From assembly GCA_902762655.1 (NCBI GenBank), contig CACWOZ010000005.1, positions 7,761 to 71,760 of the forward strand: 64,000 nucleotides of DNA, read 5' to 3'. Shown piece after piece: positions 11,232 to 39,232 of the stretch. Within the stretch, counting starts at the first letter, position 1. Every line of letters begins with the position of its first letter. The translations under genes were made by a program, and so were the position numbers. The notes under the pieces were generated by a model. That model did not search any database. It saw nothing but the letters and a program-made list of their open reading frames with translations, and had not been told where the DNA came from. Source of the DNA: an uncultured Bacteroidia bacterium. GTDB taxonomy: Bacteria > Bacteroidota > Bacteroidia > Bacteroidales > UBA932.

Positions 11232-12050
11232 ATGGCTATGACCAAAAATTCAGAACGCAGGATAAGGCAGATTTGGGATCAGGCGGATCCCCTTGAGAGT
11301 TCTGCCCTGCCCAGCGCTTCCGCTGTCCTGTCCAAAGGTCTTTCCCGGGAAAAAACCGTCCGTCGGCGCATTGTTGCAGCCATGTCTTCTGCGGCTGTCC
11401 TGCTGGCGGTGATCACCGGCTATTTCTCGTTCTCCGGAAGGCAGTCCTCCGTAACCCTGCTTGCAGAAGGAGACAAGGCTCAATATACCCTTCCGGACGG
11501 CACCAACGTGTGGCTGAACAAGAACTCCAGACTTGAATACGGGAGTTCTTTCGAATCCGGAAAACGCACGGTCAAACTCTTGGGCGAAGCCTTCTTCGAC
11601 GTGGCCAAGGACGCCTTGCACCCCTTTGCGGTGGAAACGGGCGCCATGACGATAAAGGTCCTCGGAACCCGGTTCACAGTCTCGGCATACGAAAATGAAA
11701 ACCAGTCCGCCTGGCTGGAAGAGGGAAAGATTGAAGTCAACGGCCGAAATCTCGAAAACACCGAACTGCATCCCGACCAGAGCATACATTTCGACGGGAG
11801 CGGCTGGAAAGTCTCCGATACACCTGCGTCATGCCATACATCGTGGATATCAGACAGACTCACGATGGAAAACATGCCGCTCGACGAAGTGGTATCATCC
11901 CTTGAACACTGGTTCAACGTCGGACTGTCCCTCAAAGACCCTGCAAAGGCCCACGGCATCAAACTCTCGATGACCGTGAGGGGAGAGTCTCTCGCAACCA
12001 TACTCGAAACCATCAGCCTCCTTTCTGGCGAAACCGTCTCCATCAGGTAA
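11232..12050 (+). CDS. FecR-family anti-sigma factor
   Basis: Inner-membrane regulator that holds the ECF sigma factor and takes the signal from the STN domain of a TonB-dependent transporter. The 272-residue protein has a short cytoplasmic N-terminus with a W-containing sigma-binding region, one membrane segment at about 45-67, and a periplasmic FecR domain with LPDGTNVWLNKNSRLEY, RTVKLLGEAFFDV and VLGTRFTVSAY. A C-terminal DUF4974-like portion follows from about residue 195. The ATG at 11232 (or 11238) is preferred, because a longer frame from 11139 runs through the probable promoter. The SusC gene begins 21 bases later. Confidence 0.92.
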   Translation: MAMTKNSERRIRQIWDQADPLESSALPSASAVLSKGLSREKTVRRRIVAAMSSAAVLLAVITGYFSFSGRQSSVTLLAEGDKAQYTLPDGTNVWLNKNSRLEYGSSFESGKRTVKLLGEAFFDVAKDALHPFAVETGAMTIKVLGTRFTVSAYENENQSAWLEEGKIEVNGRNLENTELHPDQSIHFDGSGWKVSDTPASCHTSWISDRLTMENMPLDEVVSSLEHWFNVGLSLKDPAKAHGIKLSMTVRGESLATILETISLLSGETVSIR

Positions 12051-12071
12051 GAATAAACGTAGTATTCTGCT

Positions 12072-15000
12072 ATGCGTTGGAGTCGGATTATCATCTTGAC
12101 GATAGTATTGTCGTGCATTCAGGCGTTCAATCACACGCTTGAAGCGCAGAAACTCACACTCGACCTTGAGAATGTGAGCGTGCTGGAACTGTTCCGCAAC
12201 ATCGAAAAAGAGACCGGCCTCGCATTCTTCTACAGCAACAACGAAGTGGATGTCACCCGGACCGTGACGGTCAAGGTAAAGGACACTCAACTGGTCGAAA
12301 TCCTCAGCATCGTATTTCCCGAAATGAGGTGCCTGATCCTCGAAGAAAGGATAGTTCTGATTCCGGAAAGACGGCAGACGCATCCCGACACCGCCGATGC
12401 CGACACCCCGGGAATCCTGCAGTCCGGCGACACGGCGCGACTTCGGAAACCGCGGCCCATATACAATATCCTTAAAGAAGCGATAGTGGTGGGATACGGC
12501 ATCCAGCAGAAAAAGAATGTTACCGGCGCGGTATCTGTTCTGGATGAAAAGGACATCAAGGATCGCCCCGTGGCTGGAATAGGACAGGTGATGCAGGGGA
12601 TGGTGTCCAACTTGAACATACTTCAGGAATCCGGCCAGCCGGGAGCCGTTTCCCTGTTCAATATCCGCGGAACAACGTCTCTGAACGGCGGCGACCCCCT
12701 GATCCTTGTGGACGGAGTGGAGACCGATCCCATGAGCGTCAACCCGTCGGACATAGAATCTATCACCATCCTCAAGGACGCTTCCTCCGCAGCCATCTAC
12801 GGAGTCCGGGGAGCGTTCGGAGTCATTCTTGTCACAACCCGTACCGGGCAGCACGACCGTCCGCCCAAGGTCTCCCTGAACACCAGGTTCTCCCTTTCTG
12901 CAAACACCGTCTCCACCAACTTTGAAACAAGGGGTTACGATGCCGCCAAACTCGCGGACAGATTCATGCTGAACTCCGTTTCGGGCATACCATATACCAA
13001 GTATACCGATGCGGATTACCAGCGTCTTTACGAACGCAGGGGTGACAAGAAGCCAGTTGCGGAGCGTCCGTGGATGGTGACGGAGAACCGCGACGGCGTC
13101 CCTTCGTACATCTACCTCGGCAACTTCGACTGGTACAGGTATCTTTACAACGAATCCCGGCCTACGCAGGATTACAACATAGAAATCTCCGGAGGCTCGC
13201 AGAAAGTCTCCTACAAGCTCAGCGGACGCTTCTACAACCAGCAGGGAATCCAGCGCATGGGCCCCGACCGCTTCCGCTCCTACACCCTTTCGAGCAAGGT
13301 GCAGATGCAGTTGAGGGACTGGCTGAGCATTGGTTACAGCTCCCGGTTCTATTCGTCTGGATATAACTATCTCGGCCTCGATTCCCAGTATATTAACTTC
13401 TACCGCCCCACCATACATGCCCTGCCCTCCTTCCTGCCGGTGAATCCAGACGGGACGGCGGTGTCGCACACGGTACTCACCAACTCTTCCGCCCATTTCA
13501 TAATGTCCGGCTACAACTCCATGATGCGCAGCGGCAACACCGGCGGAACAAATACCGACGAGCAGACCTACAACACCATCGACATGACCGCCGACCTGCT
13601 CCCCGGTTTATCGCTGAAGGCATCCTACACCTACCACTCCTCCTACCTGCAGAAACTGTTCAGGAGCGCTCCCGCCCCCTACTCCATGTACCCCGGCGAA
13701 ACCGCCTACGAACCCGCAAACGCCTACGAGGATTATCTTTCGCAGAGAGACACGCGCATCAGGAGGAACTTCTTCGATGTCTTCCTCACCTGGGAGAAGA
13801 CCTTCGCCGGAAGGCACCATCTGACCGCCGTCGGCGGAGGGTCATACGAAGACTGGACGAGCAAGCAGCTGTTCGTGCAGCGGAAGGACCTTCTGTCGGA
13901 GACGCTGTCGGATTTCAATCTCGCCACGGGAGAGATCAAACGACTCAACGGCGGAGTGCGGGAATACGCGCTTGCCGGCCTTTTCTACAGGGTTTCATAC
14001 GACTGGAAAGGAAAATACCTACTGGAATTCAACGGCCGCTTCGACGGCTCTTCCCGCTTCCCCAAGGGCAACAAATGGGGTTTGTTCCCTTCCGTTTCGG
14101 GAGGATGGAGGATTATCCCCCAACTTAAGCTCAGGGCATCCTACGGGTCGCTGGGCAACCAGTCCATCAACGAATATGCTTACTGGCAGACCATTCGCAC
14201 CGGCGATGTCATGCGATACTCCTTCGACGGGCAGACACTTGGCAGATTCGCGGTAGTGGACGACCCTGTGGAAACCGGAACCTGGGAGAAGATACTGACC
14301 ACCAACGTCGGCGCCGACCTCTCTCTGCTCAACTCCCGCCTGAGCATAGCGGCCGACGCTTACGTGAGGAACGCCATCGGCATACTCACTTCCGGAACCG
14401 CCCTGCCCTCATTCTATGGTGCGACCGAACCCCTGGTGAACGCCCACGACATCCGCACCAACGGATGTGAACTGACCGTAACATGGAACGACAGCGCCAA
14501 GTTCAGGGGCCGGAACCTGAATTACGGGATAACCGCCGTGCTGTCGGATTACATATCCACGTATGTCAGATGCGACAATCCTTCCGGCCTCCTCTCCGAA
14601 CCTTACCCAGGCCGCAGGCTCGGTGAGATATGGGGATATGAGGTCGACGGGCTGTTCCGCAACGACGACGAAGCAGCCGCCTATGCCGCCAAGGTCGACC
14701 TTTCTCAGATAAGTCCTGGATATTTCTCTTCCTTTAACGAAGCGTCCCGCGGAGTGCGTGGAGGAGATATGAGATACATCGACCTCAACGGCGACGGTAT
14801 CATAACATCCGGCAAGAACACCCTTGATGACCCGGGCGACCAGAAAGTCATAGGCAACAGCCTGCCTCGCTGGCAGTACGGAGTCCGCGGAAACGTGTCA
14901 TGGAACGGATGGACGCTTCAGCTGTTTTTCCAGGGCATCGGGCACATGGACTGGTATCCCGGACACGAAAATATGCGCTTCTGGGGCCCTTATTCAAGGC

Positions 15001-15386
15001 CTTACGCATCGTTTGTCCCGCGTGGTTTCATGAATGACGTATGGGATGAAGACAATACCGGGGCCTACTTCCCGCGGCCGCGCGGATACGCCGCCCTCAC
15101 TGCATCCAACGGTTCGCTCTACTACATCAATTCCAGATACCTGCAGAATCTTGCGTATCTGCGTCTCAAAAACATTTCTCTCGCCTACAACATTCCGTCC
15201 GGGGCAATCGCGAAGGCCGGCCTTTCGGAAGCGCGGATATGCTTCAGCGGAGAGAATGTGTTTACCTGGAGTGCTGTTCACGGCAATTATGTCGATCCTG
15301 AGCAGATTTCGGCGAACAGCGACCGTAACGGCAACACCTACCCGTGGTACAGGGTCTTCTCCATCGGAATCAGCTTGACCTTCTGA
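12072..15386 (+). CDS. SusC/RagA-family TonB-dependent transporter with N-terminal STN signalling domain
   Basis: Outer-membrane importer of 1104 residues: signal peptide about 1-26, STN domain about 27-100 (VLELFRNIEKETGLAFFYS), a 35-residue linker, plug domain about 136-262 starting at EAIVVGYGIQQKKNVTGAVS with DPLILVDGVE and SIESITILKDASSAAIYG-like SusC signatures, then a beta-barrel to a terminal phenylalanine. The usual CarboxypepD_reg (DUF4480-like) domain between STN and plug is missing. STN next to FecR and an ECF sigma factor indicates that it both imports substrate and signals. Its SusD partner starts four bases later. Confidence 0.95.
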   Translation: MRWSRIIILTIVLSCIQAFNHTLEAQKLTLDLENVSVLELFRNIEKETGLAFFYSNNEVDVTRTVTVKVKDTQLVEILSIVFPEMRCLILEERIVLIPERRQTHPDTADADTPGILQSGDTARLRKPRPIYNILKEAIVVGYGIQQKKNVTGAVSVLDEKDIKDRPVAGIGQVMQGMVSNLNILQESGQPGAVSLFNIRGTTSLNGGDPLILVDGVETDPMSVNPSDIESITILKDASSAAIYGVRGAFGVILVTTRTGQHDRPPKVSLNTRFSLSANTVSTNFETRGYDAAKLADRFMLNSVSGIPYTKYTDADYQRLYERRGDKKPVAERPWMVTENRDGVPSYIYLGNFDWYRYLYNESRPTQDYNIEISGGSQKVSYKLSGRFYNQQGIQRMGPDRFRSYTLSSKVQMQLRDWLSIGYSSRFYSSGYNYLGLDSQYINFYRPTIHALPSFLPVNPDGTAVSHTVLTNSSAHFIMSGYNSMMRSGNTGGTNTDEQTYNTIDMTADLLPGLSLKASYTYHSSYLQKLFRSAPAPYSMYPGETAYEPANAYEDYLSQRDTRIRRNFFDVFLTWEKTFAGRHHLTAVGGGSYEDWTSKQLFVQRKDLLSETLSDFNLATGEIKRLNGGVREYALAGLFYRVSYDWKGKYLLEFNGRFDGSSRFPKGNKWGLFPSVSGGWRIIPQLKLRASYGSLGNQSINEYAYWQTIRTGDVMRYSFDGQTLGRFAVVDDPVETGTWEKILTTNVGADLSLLNSRLSIAADAYVRNAIGILTSGTALPSFYGATEPLVNAHDIRTNGCELTVTWNDSAKFRGRNLNYGITAVLSDYISTYVRCDNPSGLLSEPYPGRRLGEIWGYEVDGLFRNDDEAAAYAAKVDLSQISPGYFSSFNEASRGVRGGDMRYIDLNGDGIITSGKNTLDDPGDQKVIGNSLPRWQYGVRGNVSWNGWTLQLFFQGIGHMDWYPGHENMRFWGPYSRPYASFVPRGFMNDVWDEDNTGAYFPRPRGYAALTASNGSLYYINSRYLQNLAYLRLKNISLAYNIPSGAIAKAGLSEARICFSGENVFTWSAVHGNYVDPEQISANSDRNGNTYPWYRVFSIGISLTF

Positions 15387-15390
15387 CGCT

Positions 15391-17121
15391 ATGACAAAGA
15401 AATTAATTCTGATTCTCTGCACGGCCCTGACATTATCCTGCTCAGGTTTTCTGGTGAAGGAACCCGAAGATGCCCTCGCGGTTGAGGATTTCTTCAAGGA
15501 TGAGACCCAGTGCCGTCTCTATACTAACAGGTTCTACCGCATTCTTCCGTCCGGATCGGCGATATTCGACGAGGGGGCCGATATTATTATCAAGAGCACT
15601 CTCGCTCCAGAACTCCGCGGTGCCCGATTCGTGTCGTCCAAAGACAGAAACTGGACCTGGGATGCCCTGCGCGAAATCAATTTCTTCCTTGAGAATATCT
15701 GGCGTTGCGACGATGCCCGGGTGCGTGCCGAATACTCCGGCCTCGCCCGTTTCTTCCGCGCCTGGTTCTACTATGACAAAGTGCGCAGATTTGGCGACGT
15801 GCCCTGGTTTGACCATACCCTCAACGCCTCAGACATTACCCTTTACAAGGAGAGGGACAGCCGCAGTTTTGTAATGGCGAACGTGCTTGCCGACATCGAC
15901 GACGCCATAGCCAACCTGCCTGCGGATCATGAGAAATACAGGGTTACGCGCTGGACCGCCCTTGCGCTGAAGAGCCGCATCTTCCTCTTCGAGGGCACCT
16001 GGCGCAAGTATCATGGCTTGGAAGACTGGGAATCCTGTCTCCGCGAATGCGTGTCTGCCTGCGAGGAACTTATAGCGGACGGCGGCTACTCCCTCTATAC
16101 GGAAGGCGACACGCCCTACCGAGACCTCTTCCTCAGCAAAAGCGCCGTCGGTCAGGAGGTGATTCTCGCCCAGGCTTACGGAATATCGATGGGCCTCACC
16201 CATAACGCAAACGACTACTTCACATCCACGACGATGGGACGTTCGGGCCTCCTTAAAGACGTCGTGGACATGTACCTGATGACCGACGGCTCACGTTTCA
16301 CCGACAAGGAAAACTTCGACAACCTCGACTTCATGCAGGAATGCCAGGGGCGCGATCCGAGGCTGGCCCAGACAATCCGCACCCCCGGATATACCCGCGT
16401 GGGAAGCCAGTCATGGGTCGCCCCCGACATGAACGCTACCCTGACAGGCTATCAGATAGTGAAGTATGTGGGAGAACCCCGCTACGACATCTCAAACACT
16501 TCCGAAAACGACCTGCCCATCTTCCGCTTGGCGGAGGTGTACCTGAACTACGCCGAGGCGAAGGCAGAACTCGGGACCCTGACGCAGGACGACCTTGACA
16601 AGACGGTCTGCCTGCTCCGCAGCAGGGTCGGCATGCCTCCTCTCGACATGGCCGCCGCCAACGCCTCCCCCGATCCTTTCCTATGCGATCCTGTGACGGG
16701 ATACAAGAACGTGCAGGGCCCCGACAGGGGGGTGATACTCGAAATCCGCAGGGAGCGCACCATAGAACTTATCTGCGAAGGATTCAGATACTGGGACATC
16801 ATGCGCTGGAAAGAGGGAAAGCGTTTCGACAGGCCCTTCCTCGGGATGTATTTCCCCGGCCCCGGCACCTATGACCTCGACGGAAGCGGAAGCGACGACT
16901 TCTGCCTCTACCTCGGCGATTCCCCTGCCGTGGAGAGCGGCGTCGCGTATTCCAACATAGCCGACCTGGCGCTCACCAGGGGCATGAGCGGGAACATAGT
17001 GCGCTTTGGCAACATCCCCCGCAACTGGCGTGAAGACAGGGACTACCTCTATCCGATACCTACCGATGACATAGTGCTCACAGGAGGAGCAATAGTACAA
17101 AACCCCAACTGGGATGAATAA
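15391..17121 (+). CDS. SusD/RagB-family outer-membrane lipoprotein
   Basis: Surface substrate-binding partner of the preceding SusC. The 576-residue protein has a lipoprotein signal with the lipidated cysteine at C17 (LTLSC). The SusD fold is shown by the N-terminal helical repeat region (FFRAWFYYDKVRRFGDVPWF near 120-140), WTALALKSRIFLFEGTW, and the C-terminal ERTIELICEGFRYWDIMRWK and PIPTDDIVL segments. Its 3' end abuts the next lipoprotein gene. The ligand is not predictable. Confidence 0.95.
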   Translation: MTKKLILILCTALTLSCSGFLVKEPEDALAVEDFFKDETQCRLYTNRFYRILPSGSAIFDEGADIIIKSTLAPELRGARFVSSKDRNWTWDALREINFFLENIWRCDDARVRAEYSGLARFFRAWFYYDKVRRFGDVPWFDHTLNASDITLYKERDSRSFVMANVLADIDDAIANLPADHEKYRVTRWTALALKSRIFLFEGTWRKYHGLEDWESCLRECVSACEELIADGGYSLYTEGDTPYRDLFLSKSAVGQEVILAQAYGISMGLTHNANDYFTSTTMGRSGLLKDVVDMYLMTDGSRFTDKENFDNLDFMQECQGRDPRLAQTIRTPGYTRVGSQSWVAPDMNATLTGYQIVKYVGEPRYDISNTSENDLPIFRLAEVYLNYAEAKAELGTLTQDDLDKTVCLLRSRVGMPPLDMAAANASPDPFLCDPVTGYKNVQGPDRGVILEIRRERTIELICEGFRYWDIMRWKEGKRFDRPFLGMYFPGPGTYDLDGSGSDDFCLYLGDSPAVESGVAYSNIADLALTRGMSGNIVRFGNIPRNWREDRDYLYPIPTDDIVLTGGAIVQNPNWDE

Positions 17122-17131
17122 TAACGACTAT

Positions 17132-19630
17132 ATGACGATCAGAAAAACATTCTTCTTCCTCTGCCTTTCCGCCGTGCTGCTCTTTTCTTGCGGCAAGCCG
17201 GAGACAGGCGGTGAAGGCAATACGGAAGAGCCTTCTGCTCCCGGACAGCAGGAAGGAATAAAGCCGGGCGACCCCGTCCAGGTCGTAGACGGAAAAGTCA
17301 GGTTCTACCTTGATTTCAAGGAAGACGGAATCTTTCGTACCCTCGGCGTGAAGGCGGATTTGGCAAAAGATTACACCTTGGCCGTCGGCGGAAAAGAGTA
17401 CGAGGTGACTTCGGACGAAGAAGGCCGGGCATTTGCTGAAGTAGCCGTCAATCCGGCGGCTTTCTACAATGCATCTGTTGTTTCAGAGGCATCCGGGCCC
17501 TATTTCGGATCTTCTCCCTACATTGGGCTTATACTTCCTCCCGGGCAATTCAGGAGTTCGGCAACGGACGATGCCTCTTCCATGCCGCTGTTTGCATCCT
17601 ACGCCAAAGAGAACGGCAATGTGCTCTATCTGTCGCCGGGATGCGGAATGCTTTCGCTGGATATCAATGGTGCATCCAAACTCGTTTCCGTCAAGGTTGA
17701 GGACCCTGCCGGAACTTTCATATCCGGCTATGGGAACTATGTGGTGTCAAAACAGGCCAACATCATAAGCAAAGGTTTCCCGTGGGTCAGCCTGAACTGC
17801 ACAGGAGCGAGCGGGGGCGGCAAATTCTTTATCCTTGTTGCCGCAGGAGAATATCCCCTGGGTCTTGATGTCACGGTTTCAGATGCCGCGCACCGGAAAC
17901 AGACCCATCATCTGGACCTGCCTTCCCTGCAGTCGGATCAGGTTTATTCGCAGAGTTTTGACTGGTCTCCCGAAGAAGATATCATCTTCTATGAGGGATT
18001 CGATAACTGCGTGTGGGGAGGAGATGTGGTCAGCGGCAGCAGCGGAGCCGGATTCGCTCCGGTTGACAAGGATCCCGGAACTGATGCCGACGCCACCCTC
18101 AGGGGCAACGAACGGGCCCTGGCTATTGTACCCTACAACCAGCCAGGTACCGGATACATTCAGTCTCCGTTATTTATGGATGTGAGCGGCAAGACCGTGG
18201 AGCAGTCACACAAGATGAGTTCCGCCTACGTCGCAAGCCGCAATTTCGGAGGATACAGATTTCTTTACAGATGCCAGGAGCATTCCGGATATGTTGCGCT
18301 TGGGACAGGCGACGAGTACAAGGGAATCTGGCAGACGGTTCCTTTGAAAGATGAAATAGGCGGGCTGTGCGATCTCTCCTTCAGCTTCGATTTCGTGCTT
18401 GCTCCCGGATTCAAGGATCTTCTCCATGTCCAGGTCGTGAACGGAGGATTCGTGGAATCCGTGCAGGTTGACGGAGAGCATCTGGAGAACTTCGGCCAGG
18501 GGACAGGATATATAGGAGTTACGCATACCATCAACCTTGCTCCGGCCAGGTACGCAACGGGTTCCATGGCATCGAAGAAAACCTGGCATCACGCAGAGAT
18601 CAAGATACGGAACGCGAACGATGCGACCTACTTCAGCGTGACGACCGCGGACGAGGGCAAGGGAGTGCACGGATTCTGGCTCGACAACCTGCTGGTCCGC
18701 AGGACGAAGGACCGCAGGACGCGCGACAACGGAACCTTCCGTGTGCTGTACTGGAACATTCAGGACGGAATGTGGGCCGACCAGTACAACAACTACGACA
18801 ATTTCGTTTCGTGGATCAAGCGTTACAGCCCGGACGTCTGTGTCTGGTGCGAAGCAAGATCCATCTTCAACGCTGCCGGCACCAACCTCACGAAGGCCGA
18901 AAAAGCCACCATGTTGACCAACGCATGGCCCTCGCTTTACCCGCGATACAACCACAGTTACTATGCTCTCGGAGGAGACCGCAACAACTACCCCCAGGCG
19001 ATAACTTCGCGCTACAACATCACCACGCTCAAGAGAATCACCGATACCGACGAAGCCGGCCGTCCGGTCGTGAGCGGTGCGGGACTCTTCCGCATCAACG
19101 TGGCCGGAGAGGATATTTACATAGTGACCCTGCATCCCTACGCGCAGGCTTATGCTGCCGATGTGCCCGTAGAGGAGAGAGATGCTTCCGCAGCGGCGCA
19201 CGGGGGAGATTACTACCGCGAACACGAGGTGAAATATGTGATTTCCCAGACCATCAACAATCCGGAATACGCCGGAGTCAAAAACTGGATAATGATGGGA
19301 GACTTCAACTCCCAGTCGCCCAACGACGATTTCTACTACAAGCTCGGCGCGTCCACTACCAAGTATCTGGCCCAGAAGCAGATACTCGACAATACGGAAT
19401 ACCGGGACATAATCGCGGATCAGTACCCCGGAGCCTTCATGACATCCACCTGCGCCGCCACCAGCCGCATCGACTACATGTTCGCTTCAGAGCAGATGTA
19501 CGGACGTGTGGCGAATGCCGTGATACTCACTGATTCCTGGGCCGATCCCTACCAGGTCGACGGTGTCGCCGGATATCTGTGTTACCCGTCGGATCACCGC
19601 CCCGTGATGGTGGACTTCAGAATGAAATAA
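17132..19630 (+). CDS. Surface lipoprotein with C-terminal EEP (endonuclease/exonuclease/phosphatase) domain
   Basis: An 832-residue lipoprotein; lipobox LLFSC with C20. The ATG at 17132 puts the signal peptide at the very N-terminus; an ATG at 17114 would add six polar residues and overlap susD. Residues about 20-300 are beta-rich and unrecognised. About 300-530 looks like a jelly-roll/lectin-like module (IIFYEGFDNCVWGG, FWLDNLLVRR). The EEP domain covers about 534-832 with N542 (WNIQ), E574 (WCEA), D724/N726 (GDFNS) and D821/H822 (SDH), a complete metal and phosphate-cleaving set. It probably cleaves phosphodiesters at the cell surface. The EEP part closely resembles the free enzyme at 30475-31437. 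Confidence 0.88.
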   Translation: MTIRKTFFFLCLSAVLLFSCGKPETGGEGNTEEPSAPGQQEGIKPGDPVQVVDGKVRFYLDFKEDGIFRTLGVKADLAKDYTLAVGGKEYEVTSDEEGRAFAEVAVNPAAFYNASVVSEASGPYFGSSPYIGLILPPGQFRSSATDDASSMPLFASYAKENGNVLYLSPGCGMLSLDINGASKLVSVKVEDPAGTFISGYGNYVVSKQANIISKGFPWVSLNCTGASGGGKFFILVAAGEYPLGLDVTVSDAAHRKQTHHLDLPSLQSDQVYSQSFDWSPEEDIIFYEGFDNCVWGGDVVSGSSGAGFAPVDKDPGTDADATLRGNERALAIVPYNQPGTGYIQSPLFMDVSGKTVEQSHKMSSAYVASRNFGGYRFLYRCQEHSGYVALGTGDEYKGIWQTVPLKDEIGGLCDLSFSFDFVLAPGFKDLLHVQVVNGGFVESVQVDGEHLENFGQGTGYIGVTHTINLAPARYATGSMASKKTWHHAEIKIRNANDATYFSVTTADEGKGVHGFWLDNLLVRRTKDRRTRDNGTFRVLYWNIQDGMWADQYNNYDNFVSWIKRYSPDVCVWCEARSIFNAAGTNLTKAEKATMLTNAWPSLYPRYNHSYYALGGDRNNYPQAITSRYNITTLKRITDTDEAGRPVVSGAGLFRINVAGEDIYIVTLHPYAQAYAADVPVEERDASAAAHGGDYYREHEVKYVISQTINNPEYAGVKNWIMMGDFNSQSPNDDFYYKLGASTTKYLAQKQILDNTEYRDIIADQYPGAFMTSTCAATSRIDYMFASEQMYGRVANAVILTDSWADPYQVDGVAGYLCYPSDHRPVMVDFRMK

Positions 19631-31442: not shown

Positions 31443-34091
31443 ATGAAGAAGTCTTTATTATCAATTCTTCCGCTTTTCCTGCTTGCTGCATGCGGCAGGC
31501 AGGAACTGCCGGAAGTCAATACAGGTTCCGATGGCCTCAGGGCCGTCTTCGCCGACAACACAAAGACTGGCTTTTCCGGTTCCGTGTATTCATGGATGAA
31601 TGGCGACCGCATCCGAGTCGCCGCCTCCGAAGGGGGAACCATCGACTATAAGTATACAGGACCCGCTTCTTCCGGCGAGGTGACTTTCGTGAAAAACGGG
31701 GAAAGCTCCAAGACGGTGCTTTACGGCGATGCCGGATTCGCAGTATATCCTTCCCTTTCGGAAGGGAACTGCGCGGTGTCTGCCGGCACCATGACCCTGT
31801 CGTTGAAAAACAGGTATACCTGGTCCGATGGCAACGTAGAAGCTCCCATGATGGCTCCCGTAGTCTACGGACAAGCCCTCCGCTTCAAGAATCTGGGCGG
31901 GCTGCTGCGTGTCGCATACACCAACATCCCTTCCGGAGCCATCGGTCTCAAAGTGACGACTCCGGGATATGAAACATCCTCCGGGCTGACTGTGGCGGGG
32001 TGGGACGGAACCTTCGCGTCAGATACCCCTTATCTTCAGGCTGTGGCCGGTGAAGACGGAGTGCTGACCTTCGAGTTCGCTGCAGGAGCCCCCGCAGACA
32101 AGACCTTCTATGTTCCTCTTCCGGTGGGGCCGGGAGCGGAGCACAAATATCCTTCCGTAAAGGTATTCCTGGTCGACGCCGAAGGCGCAATGATTCCGGG
32201 AACGCTCCGGACGGCGACAAATCTTCAAATTGAAAGAGATGCCATCAAACCTATGCCTTCCATCCCCGTCCCGGATCCGTATTCGGTTACGACGATCATC
32301 GGAAGCAAGGGGCGTAACACCGCATTGGCGTCCAAGGCGGGCGGTGCCTACGCGGATGTCATCTTCGGCTGCCCGCGCGGAATGGGCTGGATCAACCCGG
32401 GACACACAGCCTTTATTCTCGATCAGGCGCAAAACCTGAGAATCTGGGATCTTGATGCCAAAACGGTTTCTGCACCATGCTTCTACGGCTCATCTTCCTA
32501 TGTTCCCTGGAGTGGCGTATATAGAGACGGCGTCGTCTATTTCGCCGAGAAGGCGGGCGGCATGGTGTATTCCTACAACGTCTCCTCAAACAGCTTCACG
32601 TGCCTGAACAGCTCTTACAGCGGCAAGAGCCCCATGGATGTGAAGTTTGATGCGACCGGCAATGCCTATCTCGCCGTGCGTGACCTCAATACCGTCTACA
32701 AGTACGACGGCGGCGACTTCTCCGCTGAGCCTTCCGCTTCCTACAATCTCGGCAAATGGCCGTTGAGGATGGAATTTGACCCTTACGGCGATCTTGTCGT
32801 CGCCACCAACGGCGGCCAGATCATAAAGATCGACACCGCGACGGGCGATCAGGAAGTTATAGCAGGAACGCTGTCTGCCAACACTATGGATGACGGAACT
32901 CCGGGATATCCCCATACGGCAAAATTTACCAACAACCTTAATGCGATGGCAATCACTTCCGGGGGAGTTATCTATGTGGGAGATCATTATCGCCTGCGCA
33001 AAATAACACCGGGGCCGTCAGGCTATGCCGATGCCGTTGTTTCTACAGTTGCCGGAAGCACCCAGGCCGCTTCGCGTTCGGATGCCGATGGAACGGGAAC
33101 TTCCGCTACCTTCCGGAATATCGGAGGGCTGCTGCTGAGTCCGGATGAGACGGTTATGTATGTTTCTGACCAGGAAAGTGGCTATATCCGAGAAATTTTC
33201 CTTGGAAGCGCCGATGCGGGCAGCAAGCCGAAAGACATGCTCAAGGCTGCGACATACAATATACGCTTCGTTACCGACAAAGACACGGGAAACAAGGCCT
33301 GGGATACCAGGAAGTCGAAGGTGGTGAAACTTATAAAAGATTACGATTTCGATGTGATCGGTTTCCAGGAATCCACATTGGACCAGAGGACCTGGCTCAA
33401 GTCCCAGCTCACGGGGTATAGTTTTCAGGAATCTTCTTACGAGGATCCCTGCATTGCGTGGAAGAGTTCCAAATATACCAGGCTCGACTGGGGGCAGTTC
33501 TGGCTCAGTCCTGCACCGGACACTCCCAATTCGCGTCCCGGCCCGCCCTGGATCGAGGTCACAATCCCGCGCAGCCGTATTTGTATTTGGGTAAAGCTTA
33601 GGGACAACGCATCCGGAAAGGAATTTATCTACATGAATACCCATCTTGAGGTGTATTCTTCCGGAATCGCCGGAACGGGAGGTCTTACGGAGGAGGAACT
33701 TGAAGAATGTTGCGTGACAGTGAGGACGAAATCTGCGGAACTTTTGGTGGACAGGGCGATGGCGCTTGGCGGCACGAGTGTGCCGACCATTCTTGTCGGA
33801 GATATGAACAGCAATACCACCGAGGCCGGGAATACGGCCCTGAAGGCATATTTTACAGATTCATATTATGATGACAATGTGGTAAACCGCGGGGTAAAAT
33901 ACGGCTCTGTCGCCACATACAACGGATGGAGTGACACAGATGAGCAAGCGGGCAAATGGTATCATCGCATAGACGATATTTACTATATCAATGGGCTGCA
34001 CCTCGGTTCCTATCGGGTTGTCCGCCGCAACTACGACGATATTCTCCCGTCAGACCACTGGCCGGTAACTGTTGACTTTGTATTGGACTAA
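31443..34091 (+). CDS. Fimbrillin-like / NHL-propeller / EEP fusion lipoprotein
   Basis: An 882-residue lipoprotein with C17 (LLAAC). The ATG at 31443 starts the signal peptide; the frame is open further upstream only as a shadow of the EEP gene. Three parts are seen. About 20-270 is a fimbrillin (Mfa-like) module with KTGFSGSVYSWMNGDRI and YTWSDGNVEAP. About 280-595 is an NHL propeller. About 600-882 is an EEP domain with N606 (YNIR), E643 (FQES), a His near 732 (NTHLE), D787/N789 (GDMNS) and D871/H872 (SDH). The EEP type differs from the other two in the locus. Surface phosphodiesterase activity is likely, with substrate unknown. Confidence 0.85.
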   Translation: MKKSLLSILPLFLLAACGRQELPEVNTGSDGLRAVFADNTKTGFSGSVYSWMNGDRIRVAASEGGTIDYKYTGPASSGEVTFVKNGESSKTVLYGDAGFAVYPSLSEGNCAVSAGTMTLSLKNRYTWSDGNVEAPMMAPVVYGQALRFKNLGGLLRVAYTNIPSGAIGLKVTTPGYETSSGLTVAGWDGTFASDTPYLQAVAGEDGVLTFEFAAGAPADKTFYVPLPVGPGAEHKYPSVKVFLVDAEGAMIPGTLRTATNLQIERDAIKPMPSIPVPDPYSVTTIIGSKGRNTALASKAGGAYADVIFGCPRGMGWINPGHTAFILDQAQNLRIWDLDAKTVSAPCFYGSSSYVPWSGVYRDGVVYFAEKAGGMVYSYNVSSNSFTCLNSSYSGKSPMDVKFDATGNAYLAVRDLNTVYKYDGGDFSAEPSASYNLGKWPLRMEFDPYGDLVVATNGGQIIKIDTATGDQEVIAGTLSANTMDDGTPGYPHTAKFTNNLNAMAITSGGVIYVGDHYRLRKITPGPSGYADAVVSTVAGSTQAASRSDADGTGTSATFRNIGGLLLSPDETVMYVSDQESGYIREIFLGSADAGSKPKDMLKAATYNIRFVTDKDTGNKAWDTRKSKVVKLIKDYDFDVIGFQESTLDQRTWLKSQLTGYSFQESSYEDPCIAWKSSKYTRLDWGQFWLSPAPDTPNSRPGPPWIEVTIPRSRICIWVKLRDNASGKEFIYMNTHLEVYSSGIAGTGGLTEEELEECCVTVRTKSAELLVDRAMALGGTSVPTILVGDMNSNTTEAGNTALKAYFTDSYYDDNVVNRGVKYGSVATYNGWSDTDEQAGKWYHRIDDIYYINGLHLGSYRVVRRNYDDILPSDHWPVTVDFVLD

Positions 34092-34109
34092 AATAGCATT
34101 GAAAAGAAA

Positions 34110-34258: not shown

Positions 34259-34265
34259 ATGAACT

Positions 34266-36170
34266 ATGAAAAGATTTATTATTATGATTGCCGTTGCTGC
34301 GCTTGGCGTTGCAATGGCCTCCTGTGCAAAAGAGGAGCGGTTTGCTGAAGAAAGCACTGTAACTCATATACAAGTGCTCAAGGCTCGCATTGCCGCCGAT
34401 GATATCACCAAGACATACTTCGATGGAGCCACGTTCAAGTGGAAAAAGAACGATAATTGCGTTGTAAGAAGCGACAATGCAAATGGTTTCTCGACCTTCA
34501 CTTTCACGGGTGATGACACTGATGGAGAAGCGACTTTCACAAATGCCTCCGACGATCATTTGGTTTATGGCCAGAACTCTTTTGCCATATATCCTGCCAA
34601 TACGTCAACGGAAGGAGATAAGCACTATCCTCTCGAAGAGGGCGGCTCTCTGAAGATTCCGCTCAAAAACAGTTATACATGGTCCGATGGCAATGTGGAG
34701 GCTCCAATGCTTGCCCGCGTCGAGAGCGGTACCCCGCTGGAGTTCAAACATCTCGGCGGCTGTCTGAAAGTCACCTACAAGAATGTGCCTCCGAAAGCTG
34801 CCAGCCTGGTGGTCTCCGCCCCTATCGACGAGAGCAGCAGTTATAAGATTTGCAATACTATGGGGAGCACCGAGAACTGGACCACAGCAGGCGGTGGTTT
34901 CGATCCTTCGAAGACGCCATACCTCAGGGCATACAGCCATTCCGGCACATACAGTATTTCCTTCAATATCTCATCGGCCACTCCTGCCCAGCGTTCGTCC
35001 GACGAAGGTATTACCGTGTATATTCCTCTTCCCGTAGGCCCGGTTGAATCGGCAGGGAAGAATGTGTATCCCAAACTGCGGATTTCCCTGACCTTCGCCG
35101 ACGGTACCGATGTGCCCGGTTCTGTCCGCACCGCCTCGAACGTGCAGATTGAGCGAGCGAAGATCAAACCTATGCCGGCGATTTCACTGCCAAAGTACAG
35201 CATTGAGGTTGTTGCAGGAAAGGACGGAACAGGAGGAGCCACGGACGGAACAGGAACTGAAGCCCAGTTACAGCAACTCCGCGGGCTTGTTTGGCTTGAC
35301 AACAATACTCTAGCTCTTACTCAGTCGAATGGCGACAGAAAACTGCGTATGTACAATAAGACAACATCCGCAGTGACAACGTCCACAAATGTAATAGGTG
35401 CCGCTAGTGGCGCTCCTTGGCAAGGAGCGATGAACGGCGGACTTTTGTACATTGCAAATAAAGCCAGTAATGTTATCAATTCTTACAATCCCACTACGGG
35501 AGAGGTTGTCGCGAATGCGGCGTCTGTCAGTGGCGGACCCATGTGCGTCAGGTTCCATGGTGGAGATGCATATGTGATAGCCAGGGATGGTGGAAAACTA
35601 TATAAATACACGGGAGGATTAACAGGAGTGCAGAGTACTCTCTTCGATTTTTCGGCTCTCGACCTCGGATCAACAAGCGGTGAGAAAAACTACCCGCTCA
35701 CGCTTGCAATAGATTCCGATGGAAATGTGATTGTTCCTGTTTCCTGCGCTAAAGGGACTTCTCCTACTGCATATTATGTTTATGTGATCAAGCCGGACGG
35801 CAGTGTTTTGGCCAAAATAGGAAAAGGAGTGAAAGCAGCCAGCGTAGCTGCACTTGCCGACGGTGCTTCTTCGAATGCAACATTCGGCGCTCCCAACGGA
35901 ATAGCAATTGACAACAGCGGGAATATTTTCCTGGCTGAAGGAGATACCAATGGCGGCGTTATCAGGAAGATAGTCAAGACTGCCTCGGATTATAGCGATG
36001 CCGTTGTAATGACAGTACTTGGATGCGGATCATCATATACAACTGCTGTTGGGGCTACAGCTGCTTTTAGTGTAAATATTATGGATGTCGCATTCGATCC
36101 GGTAAATTCAAATGTATTTTATGTGGCAGACCAGGGACGTTACACTTTACGAAAAGTCACTATAGAATAA
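34266..36170 (+). CDS. Fimbrillin-like / NHL-propeller lipoprotein
   Basis: A 634-residue lipoprotein (C20 in AMASC). The fimbrillin-like module covers about 35-310 with KTYFDGATFKWKKND and SYTWSDGNVEAPML; the NHL propeller covers about 315-634 (FGAPNGIAIDNSGNIFLAEG) and ends RKVTIE. It is a paralogue of the first two parts of the preceding large lipoprotein: both share YTWSDGNVEAP, the PLPVGP segment and IERxxIKPMP at the module junction, but this copy has no EEP domain. GC content is somewhat lower than in its neighbours. A surface binding or structural role is likely. Confidence 0.85.
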   Translation: MKRFIIMIAVAALGVAMASCAKEERFAEESTVTHIQVLKARIAADDITKTYFDGATFKWKKNDNCVVRSDNANGFSTFTFTGDDTDGEATFTNASDDHLVYGQNSFAIYPANTSTEGDKHYPLEEGGSLKIPLKNSYTWSDGNVEAPMLARVESGTPLEFKHLGGCLKVTYKNVPPKAASLVVSAPIDESSSYKICNTMGSTENWTTAGGGFDPSKTPYLRAYSHSGTYSISFNISSATPAQRSSDEGITVYIPLPVGPVESAGKNVYPKLRISLTFADGTDVPGSVRTASNVQIERAKIKPMPAISLPKYSIEVVAGKDGTGGATDGTGTEAQLQQLRGLVWLDNNTLALTQSNGDRKLRMYNKTTSAVTTSTNVIGAASGAPWQGAMNGGLLYIANKASNVINSYNPTTGEVVANAASVSGGPMCVRFHGGDAYVIARDGGKLYKYTGGLTGVQSTLFDFSALDLGSTSGEKNYPLTLAIDSDGNVIVPVSCAKGTSPTAYYVYVIKPDGSVLAKIGKGVKAASVAALADGASSNATFGAPNGIAIDNSGNIFLAEGDTNGGVIRKIVKTASDYSDAVVMTVLGCGSSYTTAVGATAAFSVNIMDVAFDPVNSNVFYVADQGRYTLRKVTIE

Positions 36171-36177: not shown

Positions 36178-37248
36178 ATGATCAAGCTGATTACACTGCT
36201 GCTGTTTGCCCTGATGAACGGGAATGGGCTCAAGTATGTCGATGCGTCTGAACTGACGCTCACCGGAAAGGTTTTCACCGATACGCCGAATCCGTATCAC
36301 AGAATCGACACGGCGGCCTTCCATGGCTTTACATCTCACGAAATCAGGCTACTGCAGAACTCTGCGGGCGTGGCAGTGGCTTTCAGCACGGACTCCCCTT
36401 CCATAACGGTCGTCGCCGAGTATGGGTACAAGTCCTACAGCCTCAATTCCAACGCATTCATGGCGAGAGGTTTCGACCTGTACATACGCGATGGCGGGCA
36501 GTGGCTTTGGGCGGCTTCCGGAGTTCCCGACGACAAGGTCTCCGGAAAGCCCCTGAAGCTGATATCCAACCTGCCGGAAGGGAATAAGGAGTGTCTTTTG
36601 TATCTCCCGGGATTCAGCGAAATCCTGTCTTTGAAAATCGGGGTGAAGGAGGAGGCCGCCATCGAGCCTCTTCCCAACCCTTTCCGTCACCGCGTGGCGG
36701 TATTCGGGTCCAGTTTCACCCAGGGCGCGGCATGTTCCAAGGCAGGCATGGCCTATCCTTCAATCCTGTCGCGCGAGACCGGAATCCAGTTCCTGAACCT
36801 CGGCGTGAGCGGTCGTTGCAAATTGCAGGACTACTTTGCGGCGGCGCTTTCCGCAGCCCCCGATGTGGATGCATTCCTCTTCGACACCTTCTCAAATCCG
36901 GAGCCCAGGGAGATAGAAGAACGCCTGATTCCGTTCATCGAGGCCGTGCAGAAGGCACATCCGGGCAAGCCGCTGATATTCCAGCAGACAATCTACAGAG
37001 AGAGAGGCAATTTCGACACTTACAACCGGAAGTGGGATGCCGACCGCATCGCGCTCGTCGCGAAGATGATGAAAGACGCATGCAAAAAGTATGACGACGT
37101 CTATTTCCTCGAATGCACGAATGCGACTTCTCCCGACCATTATACCTCCGTGGACGGCACCCACCCCGGTGATTACGGCTACACCCTCTGGGCAAGGTCG
37201 ATAAAGAAGCCCGCCCTCCGAATCCTCAGAAAATATGGCATCAAATAA
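36178..37248 (+). CDS. SGNH/GDSL-family esterase
   Basis: A 356-residue secreted hydrolase with a probable signal peptide (about 1-20), an N-terminal beta-sandwich of the SGNH_hydro_N type (about 25-165), and an SGNH domain. Block I is FGSSFTQG with candidate nucleophile S179. Block V is DGTHPGD with D326 and H329. The block III segment is FDTFSNPE rather than the classical GxND, with N probably supplying the oxyanion. Such enzymes deacylate glycans or lipids. It starts seven bases after the previous stop and its end overlaps the GH3 gene by 14 bases. Confidence 0.87.
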   Translation: MIKLITLLLFALMNGNGLKYVDASELTLTGKVFTDTPNPYHRIDTAAFHGFTSHEIRLLQNSAGVAVAFSTDSPSITVVAEYGYKSYSLNSNAFMARGFDLYIRDGGQWLWAASGVPDDKVSGKPLKLISNLPEGNKECLLYLPGFSEILSLKIGVKEEAAIEPLPNPFRHRVAVFGSSFTQGAACSKAGMAYPSILSRETGIQFLNLGVSGRCKLQDYFAAALSAAPDVDAFLFDTFSNPEPREIEERLIPFIEAVQKAHPGKPLIFQQTIYRERGNFDTYNRKWDADRIALVAKMMKDACKKYDDVYFLECTNATSPDHYTSVDGTHPGDYGYTLWARSIKKPALRILRKYGIK

Positions 37249-39232
37249 GATAGAATCAATATTCCTTTGCCTGCTGCTCTGTTTGCAGGTGAATGCGCAG
37301 GCGGTAAGCCAGGAACATAAGGACAGGGCGGCAGCCCTCGTGTCGCAGATGACTCTGCAGGAGAAAATATCCCTTCTCGGAGGATATCGTGACGGGTTTT
37401 ACATGGCTCCCGTGGAGCGCCTCGGAATCCCTGAAATCCGCATGGCTGACGGTCCGCAGGGGGTGCGCAACAATACAAAAAGCACTCTGTTCGCCTGCGG
37501 TGTCGCAGCTGCGGCTACGTGGAATCCCGACCTCGTTTACGAAATGGGCCGGGCCCTCGGCCAGGATGCCCGTGCACGCGGAGTCCACATCCTCCTCGGC
37601 CCGGGAGTGAACATCGCCCGCAGCCCGCTCTGCGGCAGGAACTTCGAGTATTTCGGAGAGGATCCTTTCCTCGCAGGTGAGGCGGCGGTGAGTTATATCA
37701 AAGGCCTTCAGTCCGAGGGTGTTATGGCCGCCATCAAGCACTTCGCACTGAACAACAAGGAAGAGAACCGACTTCACTCATCGTCCGTCGCTGATGAACG
37801 GACTATGCACGAGATTTATTTTCCGGCATTCAGGGCCGCGGTGGAACGTGCGGACGTGGGCTCGGTCATGTTGGCCTACAACATGGTGAATTTCGTCCAT
37901 GCGACGGAGAATCCTTACCTGATCCGGGAAATACTCCGGGAGCGCTGGCATTTCGACGGCTTCACCATGTCTGACTGGACCGCCACCTATTCGCCAGTCA
38001 GCGTCGTGGAGAACGGCGTCGACCTTGAAATGCCCAGGGCTCTGACAATGAAGGAAGAATACCTGCTGCCGCTGCTGGAGAAGGGGGTGATACGCGAAGA
38101 GCAGATAGATGAGAAGGTCCGGCGCATACTTCAGACCTTCATCGCTTTCGGCTTCCTGGACCGCCCGCAACTCGACAGCAGCATCTCCGAAGACAATCCC
38201 TACTCGCGCGACGTGGCTTACCGTCTCGCCGGCGAGAGTCTTGTGCTGCTAAAGAACGACGGAGTTCTACCGCTGCGCAAAAAGGCTAAACTCACGCTGA
38301 TAGGCCCCAAATCGGATGAAATCCCCTGCGGCGGAGGCAGCGGTGCGGTGGAACCCATCTACTCCGTTTCTTTACGCGAGGGTTTTGGCAGGGTTGGAGT
38401 GCAGGAAGTTCCTATGACCGGGGCCGATGCGGTCGTGGTTGCGGTGGGCTTCGACAAAACGACCGAAAAGGAGCACTCCGACCGCAGTTTCTTCCTTCCG
38501 GAGGGGCAGGAAAGCATGATTGAGGCAGCCCTCTCATCAGGAAAACCTGTAATCGTGGTCGTTTATGCCGGAGGAGCCGTGGATGTGTCGCGCTGGGCCG
38601 ACAAGGTCTCCGCCCTAGTGTGGGCATGGTACCCCGGCCAGGAAGGCGGGCTCGCCCTGGCGGAGATGCTCACGGGCAGGTTCTCACCATCCGGGCATCT
38701 GCCGGTTTCTTTCCCCGAACATATCGAAGACAATCCTTCGCAGGCCTGGTGGAATTTTGAAAAACCATATACGAAACGCGGGCTGTCCGTGCCCTTCGTG
38801 ACTTACGGGGAGGGCGTTTTCGTCGGCTACCGCGGATACAAGGACAAGGCTCCTCGCTACCCCTTCGGTTATGGCTTGAGTTACACGTATTTTGCCTATG
38901 ACGACTTTTCTGTCGTGCCGGCGGCGGACGGTTTTGACGTGAGCGTGACCGTGTGCAATACCGGACGCTATGACGGCGCCACCACCCTGCAACTGTATGT
39001 GGGAGAAGATGTTCCCTGCGTGCCACGTCCCGAGAAGGAACTGAAGGCTTTCAGGAAAGTGTTCCTCAGGAAAGGCGCTTCGCAGACTGTCACCATGCAT
39101 CTTGGCAGGGAGGCATTCTGCTTCTACGATGCGTCGGTTCACGACTGGAGACTGAATCCGGGAACTTTCACGCTTTATCTCGGAGAATCGTGCGAAGATA
39201 TTGTCAAAACTTCGGCAATAGCAGTAAAATAA
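37235..39232 (+). CDS. Glycoside hydrolase family 3 (beta-glucosidase-like)
   Basis: A 665-residue GH3 enzyme with an N-terminal signal peptide (about 1-22). The catalytic barrel spans about 30-310, with R/K/H signature residues in GRNFEYFGEDP and AIKHFALNN and the nucleophile D247 in FTMSDW. The (alpha/beta)6 sandwich domain covers about 330-500 (ESLVLLKNDGVLPL), and a fibronectin-III-like domain closes the protein. There is no PA14 insertion. It is the only clear glycoside hydrolase in the SusCD run and the last gene before a new promoter. It may remove beta-linked glucose or similar residues in the periplasm. Confidence 0.93.
   Translation: MASNKIESIFLCLLLCLQVNAQAVSQEHKDRAAALVSQMTLQEKISLLGGYRDGFYMAPVERLGIPEIRMADGPQGVRNNTKSTLFACGVAAAATWNPDLVYEMGRALGQDARARGVHILLGPGVNIARSPLCGRNFEYFGEDPFLAGEAAVSYIKGLQSEGVMAAIKHFALNNKEENRLHSSSVADERTMHEIYFPAFRAAVERADVGSVMLAYNMVNFVHATENPYLIREILRERWHFDGFTMSDWTATYSPVSVVENGVDLEMPRALTMKEEYLLPLLEKGVIREEQIDEKVRRILQTFIAFGFLDRPQLDSSISEDNPYSRDVAYRLAGESLVLLKNDGVLPLRKKAKLTLIGPKSDEIPCGGGSGAVEPIYSVSLREGFGRVGVQEVPMTGADAVVVAVGFDKTTEKEHSDRSFFLPEGQESMIEAALSSGKPVIVVVYAGGAVDVSRWADKVSALVWAWYPGQEGGLALAEMLTGRFSPSGHLPVSFPEHIEDNPSQAWWNFEKPYTKRGLSVPFVTYGEGVFVGYRGYKDKAPRYPFGYGLSYTYFAYDDFSVVPAADGFDVSVTVCNTGRYDGATTLQLYVGEDVPCVPRPEKELKAFRKVFLRKGASQTVTMHLGREAFCFYDASVHDWRLNPGTFTLYLGESCEDIVKTSAIAVK

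Follow-up and report, generated by a model that had tools for sequence, protein, structure and literature searches.

A SusC/SusD locus with three EEP domains and a DUF5689 lipoprotein as a candidate system for scavenging phosphodiester-bearing substrates

Many SusC/D loci are without any known CAZyme to account for them, and the question raised here is what a SusC/SusD locus takes up when it carries three EEP domains. The locus lies in a stretch of 64,000 nt (the window) of an uncultured Bacteroidia bacterium (Bacteroidales; UBA932; assembly GCA_902762655.1, contig CACWOZ010000005.1, positions 7,761-71,760, forward strand). Because of its gene content, the EEP motifs, the predicted EEP2 fold, the conservation of the unit and the phosphoester-related gene neighbours of its relatives, we read it as a scavenging locus of the Sus type whose substrate contains phosphodiesters, with a probability of roughly 0.65. 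This gut bacterium probably feeds on a phosphate-linked polymer, for instance nucleic acid or a phosphate-bearing glycan. Being conserved and cloneable, the locus lends itself to testing: its enzymes and a candidate receptor are named, and two rival substrates stand clearly against each other.

Gene content of the locus

The locus is a single gene run (Pfam, NCBIfam), headed by ECF sigma factor and FecR genes (Pfam), in which two pairs of adjacent SusC and SusD genes mark a Sus-type system. The sigma factor gene, probably the regulator, is divergent from the locus (10588..11127, minus strand; Sigma70_r4_2 2.3e-18, Sigma70_r2 1.8e-9); all genes from the FecR-like anti-sigma factor onwards (11139..12050; FecR 2e-17, FecR_C 4.3e-8) are on the plus strand. 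The first pair, SusC1, a TonB-linked outer membrane transporter (12072..15386; NCBIfam TIGR04056, 667 bits), and the surface lipoprotein SusD1 (15391..17121; Pfam SusD_RagB 9.3e-44), is followed by EEP1, a lipoprotein (lipobox by eye) with a C-terminal EEP domain (17114..19630; PF03372 3.5e-10), and by c6, a conserved lipoprotein with no Pfam match and no assigned function (19638..20681). The second pair, SusC2 (20693..23764; Plug 3.4e-18, CarbopepD_reg_2 1.2e-17) and SusD2 (23769..25265; SusD_RagB 6.4e-26), precedes three further lipoproteins: a BACON protein (25240..26226; BACON 2e-7), a candidate surface capture protein with BACON, DUF5689 and C-terminal jelly-roll-like parts (26232..28610; BACON 5.5e-11, DUF5689 1.2e-10), and a protein with three TIG domains and a C-terminus that is beta-propeller-like by eye (28632..30470; TIG 3.4e-42). 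Next come EEP2, a putative secreted enzyme with no obvious lipobox by eye (30475..31437; PF03372 1.2e-7), the accessory lipoprotein EEP3, with a propeller-like N-terminal part (by eye) and a C-terminal EEP domain (31443..34091; PF03372 4.2e-10), an accessory NHL-type lipoprotein (34266..36170; NHL 2.3e-4), an SGNH/GDSL esterase (36178..37248; GxDLY and Lipase_GDSL_3, Pfam 4.9e-33 and 2.5e-31) and a GH3 beta-glycosidase (37235..39232; Pfam GH3 N and C domains). The preliminary description had reported the two pairs, the three EEP domains in one co-directional run and a DUF5689-type lipoprotein at 26232-28610; all were recovered, with coordinates exact or a few bases off.

That description had also stated that glycan-cleaving enzymes are absent apart from one GH3 and one SGNH protein, and in the Pfam scan of locus proteins GH3 is indeed the sole glycoside hydrolase. 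Among solved structures it is closest to named beta-glucosidases (7ms2, 3.8e-132), and a solved relative of the SGNH esterase, 4lhs (3.8e-69), is uncharacterised. An ordinary polysaccharide locus whose EEP domains only strip phosphate decorations would be in line with the presence of GH3, but a single glycoside hydrolase argues against it, and we consider this reading quite unlikely. Regarding the surface proteins, the model of the DUF5689 lipoprotein is of modest quality (pLDDT 67.7) and includes BACON and Eph/gingipain-adhesin-like regions. With pI values of 4.5-5.3 the surface binding proteins are acidic, a property that does not speak for the binding of polyanions.

The three EEP domains

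All three domains score above the Pfam cut-off for Exo_endo_phos (40.5, 32.2 and 40.2 bits; cut-off 24.5) and contain the N, E, H, GD[FM]N, RID and SDH motifs, in agreement with the earlier claim of intact catalytic residues. PF03372 matches number 15 across the 2.18 Mb of the genome, from which simple arithmetic gives a chance expectation of about 0.12 per 17-kb stretch, against the three observed here. EEP1 and EEP2 are 41% identical and fall, together with two paralogues from the same genome, in one clade with the signature LYWNIQNGMW and no close solved relative; across 39 clade sequences the catalytic and metal-binding motifs form an invariant set. In EEP1 the domain (residues 546-828) follows an N-terminal part of about 500 residues, and a homologue in the same genome (C19, L014) matches across 805 residues.

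EEP2 is confidently predicted to have a DNase I-like fold (AF2 model, pLDDT 91.7). All 50 Foldseek matches listed are nucleic-acid enzymes, mostly APE1 entries, which favours a nuclease; EEP2 and EEP3 also match exonuclease III and ExeM/NucH DNase models weakly, far under cut-off. In a second structural comparison an uncharacterised EEP protein came first, with AP endonucleases, LINE-1 endonuclease and nocturnin within about 1.3 Z. The top matches are so close together that the fold, although it agrees with the structural expectation for EEP2, does not by itself settle the substrate. Moreover, the residue that is Tyr in APE1 and ExoIII is His in EEP1 and EEP2, which presumably counts against nucleic acid.

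EEP3 belongs to a different group. It is probably a phosphomonoesterase, since its sequence matches 4c1r (4.3e-19) and 3mpr (5.1e-19); 4c1r is the mannosyl-6-phosphatase of a Bacteroides thetaiotaomicron mannan locus, an EEP-fold enzyme in a Sus-type locus. The relationship was seen for EEP3; 4c1r and 3mpr were not among the matches of EEP1 and EEP2 listed at E<=1, and the window locus differs from the mannan locus in being without a mannosidase. Thus the three EEP domains of the preliminary description are real, but three phosphodiesterases is too strong a count. Enzymes of the mannosyl-6-phosphatase type act on phosphomonoesters, so EEP1 and EEP2 might do so too. The kinship of EEP3, which has seven homologues in its own genome, would suit phosphate removal in an ordinary polysaccharide locus and also the use of a phosphoglycan. 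A near-identical MAG (L026) is without EEP3 and without the NHL-type lipoprotein.

Conservation of the unit and neighbours of its relatives

A survey of SusCD neighbourhoods for joint occurrence of EEP and DUF5689, as the preliminary description had proposed, drew on 25 assemblages chosen as SusCD-linked, the window included. SusC2 was found in 24 (two of these at 28% identity only), SusD2 and the BACON lipoprotein in 22 each, DUF5689 in 21, c6 homologues in 17 (window counted), and GH3 and SGNH in 16 each. In addition, 27 of 97 DUF5689 matches have an EEP-clade gene no more than 12 kb away; these come from 20 of 28 genomes, although much of this is one conserved locus. EEP-DUF5689-SusCD is a recurring unit, and the proposal that the locus captures and degrades DNA/RNA or another phosphodiester polymer holds at the level of the class; nucleic acid is not singled out, given the frequency of GH3 and SGNH. 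Away from the EEP clade, 12 of 18 DUF5689 loci carry an EEP gene (custom profile) or an S1/P1 nuclease gene; L191 and L192 are near-identical. The custom profile found no EEP in the other six (L200, L203-L206, L210), in which a minority of genes was scanned with Pfam. Since such loci exist, L205 among them with a GH2 gene, and an EEP-like gene occurs together with a GH5 gene in L202, DUF5689 alone is no marker of phosphodiesters.

Two substrates rank about level. The first, proposed tentatively, is nucleic acid used for nutrition: DUF5689 lipoproteins would catch extracellular DNA or RNA, EEP1 and EEP2 would be nucleases, and SusC/SusD would import oligonucleotides. Solo clade members lie directly 3' of purL in the purine operon in nine of 11 EEP-bearing Rikenellaceae genomes (in L050 Pfam bears out the identity of PurL and PurC), the EEP gene comes after PyrR-like and PyrB-like genes in two related MAGs, and the SusCD-linked EEP2 of Alistipes clusters with purine-operon EEPs in a quick tree. 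Against this, the association with purine genes probably goes back to a single ancestral event. In Alistipes, the sole SusCD locus covered well beyond DUF5689 (L075/L136) gave no match to GH3 or SGNH, which favours nucleic acid and speaks against an ordinary polysaccharide locus, but SGNH-like and NAGPA-like genes lie near other Alistipes EEP genes (L144, L186). Nucleic acid would also leave the widespread GH3 and SGNH without a role. The narrower proposal of a dedicated nucleic-acid utilisation locus, joining a SusCD importer, DUF5689 receptors of the Riemerella DNA-uptake family and a secreted EEP nuclease clade with solo relatives in purine and pyrimidine operons, is doubtful.

The second substrate, nearly as plausible, is a polymer built on glycerol phosphate or sugar phosphate, with teichoic acid or a deacylated phosphoglycolipid as examples, in which EEPs would cut phosphodiesters, GH3 beta-glycosyl branches and SGNH esters, with a GlpT-like antiporter importing the phosphomonoester. 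GH3 and SGNH fit here, as does L198, a SusCD-DUF5689 locus in which an EEP domain is fused to GH3, although that EEP may lie outside the EEP1/EEP2 clade. L028 and L029 have the order SGNH>GH3>GDPD>GlpT-like, but are not independent because their GDPD is identical. A GlpT-like gene adjoins EEP in L046, L049 and L057, and follows EEP and a glycerol-3-phosphate dehydrogenase-like gene in L088; the GlpT-like proteins, however, fall short of the curated cut-off in every named transporter model. Pfam places NAGPA next to SusCD/EEP genes in L018, L099 and L129, and similarity does so in L097. With related lineages counted as independent and uniform gene spacing assumed, NAGPA is enriched within 15 kb of the clade (11/115, expected <=3.0, p 3e-4), as are organophosphate-type transporters near it (8/110 at >=163 bits, expected <=2.6, p 0.006; 7/97 at >=190 bits, expected <=2.3, p 0.009); GDPD (4/141, expected <=3.5), 5'-nucleotidase C-domain (1/57) and nucleoside-hydrolase genes (1/18) are not, which counts against a phosphoglycan in the first case and against nucleic acid in the other two. 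One study describes degradation of unsubstituted glycerol-phosphate wall teichoic acid by GlpQ (PMC7086022), but the window locus showed neither NAGPA nor the GDPD and GlpT-like genes that adjoin L028 and L029 and would be expected of a teichoic-acid system. A phosphoglycan also leaves the purine- and pyrimidine-operon relatives unexplained.

The reading as phosphodiester scavenging, which spans both substrates, is weakened by the lack of GDPD enrichment, the DUF5689 loci in which the custom profile found no EEP, the many clade members that stand alone next to unrelated housekeeping genes and the acidic binding proteins.

Possible mechanism and comparison with known systems

An ECF sigma/FecR pair at the head is a feature of substrate-sensing Sus loci, and here it would probably turn the locus on once SusC1 senses the substrate. 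Surface lipoproteins (BACON, DUF5689, TIG/NHL, SusD) may hold the polymer while EEP1 cleaves phosphodiester bonds at the cell surface; fragments would be imported by SusC/SusD with TonB energy and cleaved further by EEP2 in the periplasm. SGNH and GH3 could take off ester and beta-glycosyl groups where present, and EEP3 may remove terminal phosphate in strains that carry it. If the substrate is a phosphoglycan, this would be a gut system grazing phosphate polymers, for instance of neighbouring Gram-positive cells.

The B. thetaiotaomicron rus (ribose/nucleoside) locus is a SusCD locus proposed for nucleoside-derived nutrients; the window locus differs in having no nucleosidase or ribokinase by Pfam. 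SusCD loci with phosphodiesterases have already been published. In Lapebie et al. (2019, PMC6499787), SusC/D pairs occur with phosphodiesterase genes counted as PF00149 and PF01663 and no known CAZymes, with nucleic acid suggested as a target of some such loci, which lends that substrate some support. The likeness lies in SusC/D pairs with phosphodiesterase genes; the present version differs in its EEP fold (PF03372), DUF5689, GH3 and SGNH. Among relatives, a PF01663-type gene follows EEP in 11 of 83 loci, one such gene having been scanned.

Flavobacterium PusCD are SusCD-like complexes encoded next to phosphodiesterases and phosphatases, induced by phosphate depletion and read as organic-phosphorus uptake (PMC8115612). 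The window locus resembles them in that SusCD genes adjoin three EEP genes of predicted phosphodiesterase or phosphatase activity. General phosphorus scavenging, with broad phosphodiesterases supplying phosphate under limitation, would also suit the polyphosphate kinase gene adjoining SusC-SusD-EEP in Parabacteroides (L044) and a His_Phos_2-EEP fusion among clade relatives. The Flavobacterium systems have mostly other enzyme families, whereas the window locus has EEP enzymes and an ECF/FecR head. General phosphorus scavenging is unlikely here, since such a head is typical of substrate-sensing loci and GH3 and SGNH would be left without a role.

In Riemerella, the DUF5689 protein RA0C_RS04920 and its neighbour RA0C_RS04915, a PF13620 outer membrane protein, are essential for natural transformation (PMC8459023), which favours nucleic acid; if that substrate is right, nutrition and DNA uptake would be joined by one receptor family. 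In both systems the surface protein with DUF5689 has an outer-membrane protein as its neighbour, but the DUF5689 gene of the window stands in a SusC/SusD run and not next to a PF13620 barrel without SusD. A closer architectural match exists in the window's own genome, where an operon (C1, L211) has the order Endonuclease_NS, Exo_endo_phos_3, CarboxypepD_reg barrel and DUF5689, an arrangement that likewise points to nucleic acid. One c6 homologue weakly matches a T9SS surface-DNase model (23.4 bits, cut-off 260).

Gene content of the locus and its two kinds of EEP

The locus forms a single co-directional run (11139-39232) with a divergent ECF sigma gene at its head. Pfam analysis of the locus proteins identified FecR, two SusC/SusD pairs, three Exo_endo_phos domains, BACON, BACON with DUF5689, TIG, NHL, GxDLY/Lipase_GDSL and GH3, confirming the run of two SusC/SusD pairs and three EEPs that the preliminary description had reported. 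The catalytic residues are intact, as it had also stated, with the N, E, H, GD[FM]N, RID and SDH motifs kept in all three EEP domains. Protein charge was considered as evidence on the substrate and set aside as too weak.

The three EEPs are of two kinds. The lipoprotein EEP1 (17114..19630) and the secreted EEP2 (30475..31437) are 41% identical, have the signature LYWNIQ(N/D)GMW in common and form a clade with their relatives; EEP3 (31443..34091), a lipoprotein with a propeller-like N-terminal part, lies outside it. The genome (2.18 Mb) has a total of 15 EEP matches; two further clade members are found on its contigs C19 and C23, and EEP3 has seven homologues (E<=1e-3). A FAD_oxidored protein is encoded immediately upstream of the ECF gene (9051-10598), and further genes of its cluster occur near three clade loci (L071, L080 and L098).

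Single-sequence searches with EEP1 and EEP2 gave no significant match to a solved structure; the profile of 39 clade sequences matched LINE-1-type endonucleases (2v0s, 2.5e-7), with the alignment covering only a portion of the domain. EEP3 matches the mannosyl-6-phosphatase 4c1r (4.3e-19). The three phosphodiesterases initially proposed are more likely two, EEP1 and EEP2, with EEP3, given this match, a monoesterase. The study of Cuskin et al. 2015 was reportedly on yeast mannan. In a MAG contig with 97% identity to the window over 10.9 kb (locus L026), SGNH and then GH3 come directly after EEP2, and both EEP3 (NHL-EEP) and the second NHL gene are absent (31443-36170 of the window). Because this stretch is missing from a near-identical contig, EEP3 is, as judged by sequence comparison, an accessory gene. 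The 5' half of the L026 SGNH gene is diverged from that of the window, as from recombination. A different combination is found in Cacconaster MAGs, where one protein (L034, 8735-10888) carries a histidine phosphatase (branch 2; 2.1e-7) and a clade EEP domain, the latter at 23.9 bits, just below the cut-off; L035 and L036 hold cluster homologues of this protein.

Conservation of the assemblage

The scan of genome contigs identified 406 clade relatives, and the best 80 of these, which were examined, come mainly from Bacteroidales MAGs of the rumen and hindgut; Alistipes and Parabacteroides also contribute some. The clade was matched at E<=1e-3 in 16 of 295 genomes sampled across the order: four at E<=1e-119 (including that of the window), one at 2e-25 and the others weakly. 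We compared 25 assemblages picked as SusCD-linked, including the window and one MAG of the same species, several of them truncated where the contig or stretch stops. SusC2 is present in 24 of the 25 (two at just 28%), SusD2 and BACON in 22 each, DUF5689 in 21, TIG/NHL in 19, the N-terminal part of EEP1 in 18, the conserved lipoprotein c6 (19638..20681) in 17, and GH3 and SGNH in 16 each. EEP3 is found in eight (two at just 24-25%), a GlpT-like transporter in seven, NAGPA in three and GDPD in two. Among the Alistipes members, L075/L136, read to about 15 kb beyond its DUF5689 genes, has neither GH3 nor SGNH in that stretch; L185 and L187 stop within the DUF5689 gene, and in L066/L135 the contig runs out about 4 kb past it. 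The gene caller overlooks some genes beneath opposite-strand ORFs. Eight of 83 loci lack a member of the EEP cluster; in three of these the EEP belongs to a gene fusion assigned to another cluster.

Published work (PMC6499787, PMC8115612) already describes phosphodiesterases in SusC/D loci and suggests nucleic acid as a target. A literature search of titles and abstract openings found no study on SusCD loci with EEP and DUF5689.

Neighbouring genes and the probable substrate

A phosphodiester-bearing substrate is, with a probability of about two in three, the best common explanation for the locus. The earlier proposal of DNA/RNA or another phosphodiester polymer is partly supported, as to the class of substrate, nucleic acid and phosphoglycan being near level. 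Teichoic acid was favoured at first, in view of NAGPA, GDPD and GlpT-like genes near clade relatives. In enrichment tests on positions transcribed by hand, with related genomes taken as independent and uniform spacing assumed, 11 of 115 NAGPA genes among the matches listed in 28 genomes have a clade gene no more than 15 kb away (expected at most 3.0, p 3e-4), as do, among the matches listed in 28 genomes, 7 of 97 organophosphate-type transporters of at least 190 bits (expected at most 2.3, Poisson p 0.009) and 8 of 110 of at least 163 bits (expected at most 2.6, p 0.006). NAGPA and transporter are adjacent (within 6 kb) in 7 of 97 of the matches listed (expected at most 2.2, p 0.007). Under the same assumptions and among the matches listed, no enrichment near the clade was found for GDPD (4/141, expected at most 3.5), 5'-nucleotidase C-domains (1/57, expected 1.3) or nucleoside hydrolases (1/18, expected 0.4). 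A gene of a PF01663-type cluster (one member Pfam-scanned) follows the EEP in 11 of 83 loci, and in L044 a polyphosphate kinase follows SusC-SusD-EEP, with a gene of the same cluster in L056.

Several loci with related gene content were also seen. A sister locus type with SusD, NAGPA(BACON) and EEP is found on contig C23 of the same genome (L018) and in L140 and L141; SusC was read in L018 and L141, and the L018 copy is followed by an organophosphate-type transporter. On contig C19, which ends in the locus (L016), an EEP1 homologue, GDPD and DUF4886 lie beside L-rhamnose isomerase and FGGY kinase genes, and L-rhamnose isomerase is also near a second clade member (L092). In the Alistipes family, EEP genes of the large type (L144, G315 C4; L186, G578 C8) have SGNH-like and NAGPA-like neighbours at distances of up to about 13 kb.

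Some clade relatives lie in nucleotide biosynthesis operons. In Rikenellaceae, the family of an Alistipes MAG, 11 of 150 genomes have clade members (E<=1e-40), and in 9 of these 11 a solo EEP comes immediately after purL within the purine operon (L055, L177-L184; for L179 and L180, where the gene caller placed another ORF after purL, the position is from the Rikenellaceae genome search). This secreted EEP directly 3' of purL, seen also in L050 and L074, is kept across genomes of the family. PurL and PurC of L050 were confirmed by Pfam; the other pur gene names are presumed from similarity. The EEP of L039 follows phosphoribosyltransferase and carbamoyltransferase genes, read as pyrR and pyrB, and L048 has the same gene clusters. 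The Alistipes SusCD-linked EEP2 groups with the purine-operon EEPs in a quick tree, for which the tool warns of long branches. The association with purine genes may go back to a single ancestral event. Since GDPD is not enriched and solo relatives sit in purine operons, the teichoic-acid reading was lowered. We now hold nucleic acid as a tentative substrate, somewhat short of even odds, and place phosphoglycan just behind it; the two are close rivals, each accounting for facts that the other leaves out.

DUF5689 loci and a candidate DNA-uptake operon

Among the DUF5689 matches listed, 27 of 97 have a clade gene no more than 12 kb away, across 20 of 28 genomes (positions transcribed by hand; 17 rows that are further pieces of an already counted gene excluded). 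This addresses the survey of EEP and DUF5689 co-occurrence suggested in the preliminary description, although much of the pairing is the same conserved locus. Of the 20 DUF5689 loci that we read, 18 are not near clade genes. An EEP was identified with a custom profile in nine of the 18 (L191, L192, L193, L196-L199, L201 and L202), with Pfam confirmation in L196, L198 and L199, and an S1/P1 nuclease by Pfam in three (L194, L195 and L207). The latter three combine SusCD with DUF5689; L194 also has GH3, and L207 a homologue of GH3. Neither EEP nor S1/P1 nuclease was found in six (L200, L203-L206 and L210), in which a minority of the genes were Pfam-scanned. GH5 is present in L202 and GH2 in L205. 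Phosphoester and glycoside cleavage are tied to a single protein in L198, because a 962-residue protein (220-3108, minus strand) fuses an EEP domain to a full GH3 within a SusC-SusD-DUF5689-EEP locus. A dedicated nucleic-acid utilisation locus, with DUF5689 receptors and the EEP clade as nucleases, is on balance doubtful.

Natural transformation in Riemerella is described in PMC8459023 as depending on a pair of essential proteins, one with DUF5689 and the other a PF13620 outer-membrane protein encoded next to it. A pair like it, in architecture alone, lies on contig C1 of the genome, outside the window (L211 279-11415; ~36.3-47.4 kb), beside Exo_endo_phos_3 and Endonuclease_NS. The gene order is BACON-type lipoprotein, Endonuclease_NS, Exo_endo_phos_3, CarboxypepD_reg outer-membrane barrel, DUF5689 and peptidase M3, and the first five genes are in identical order in all six genomes examined. 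By its architecture, L211 is a candidate DNA-uptake operon. A second EEP and DUF5689 pairing of this genome is found on contig C2 (L023 8123-11529), near a partial SusD.
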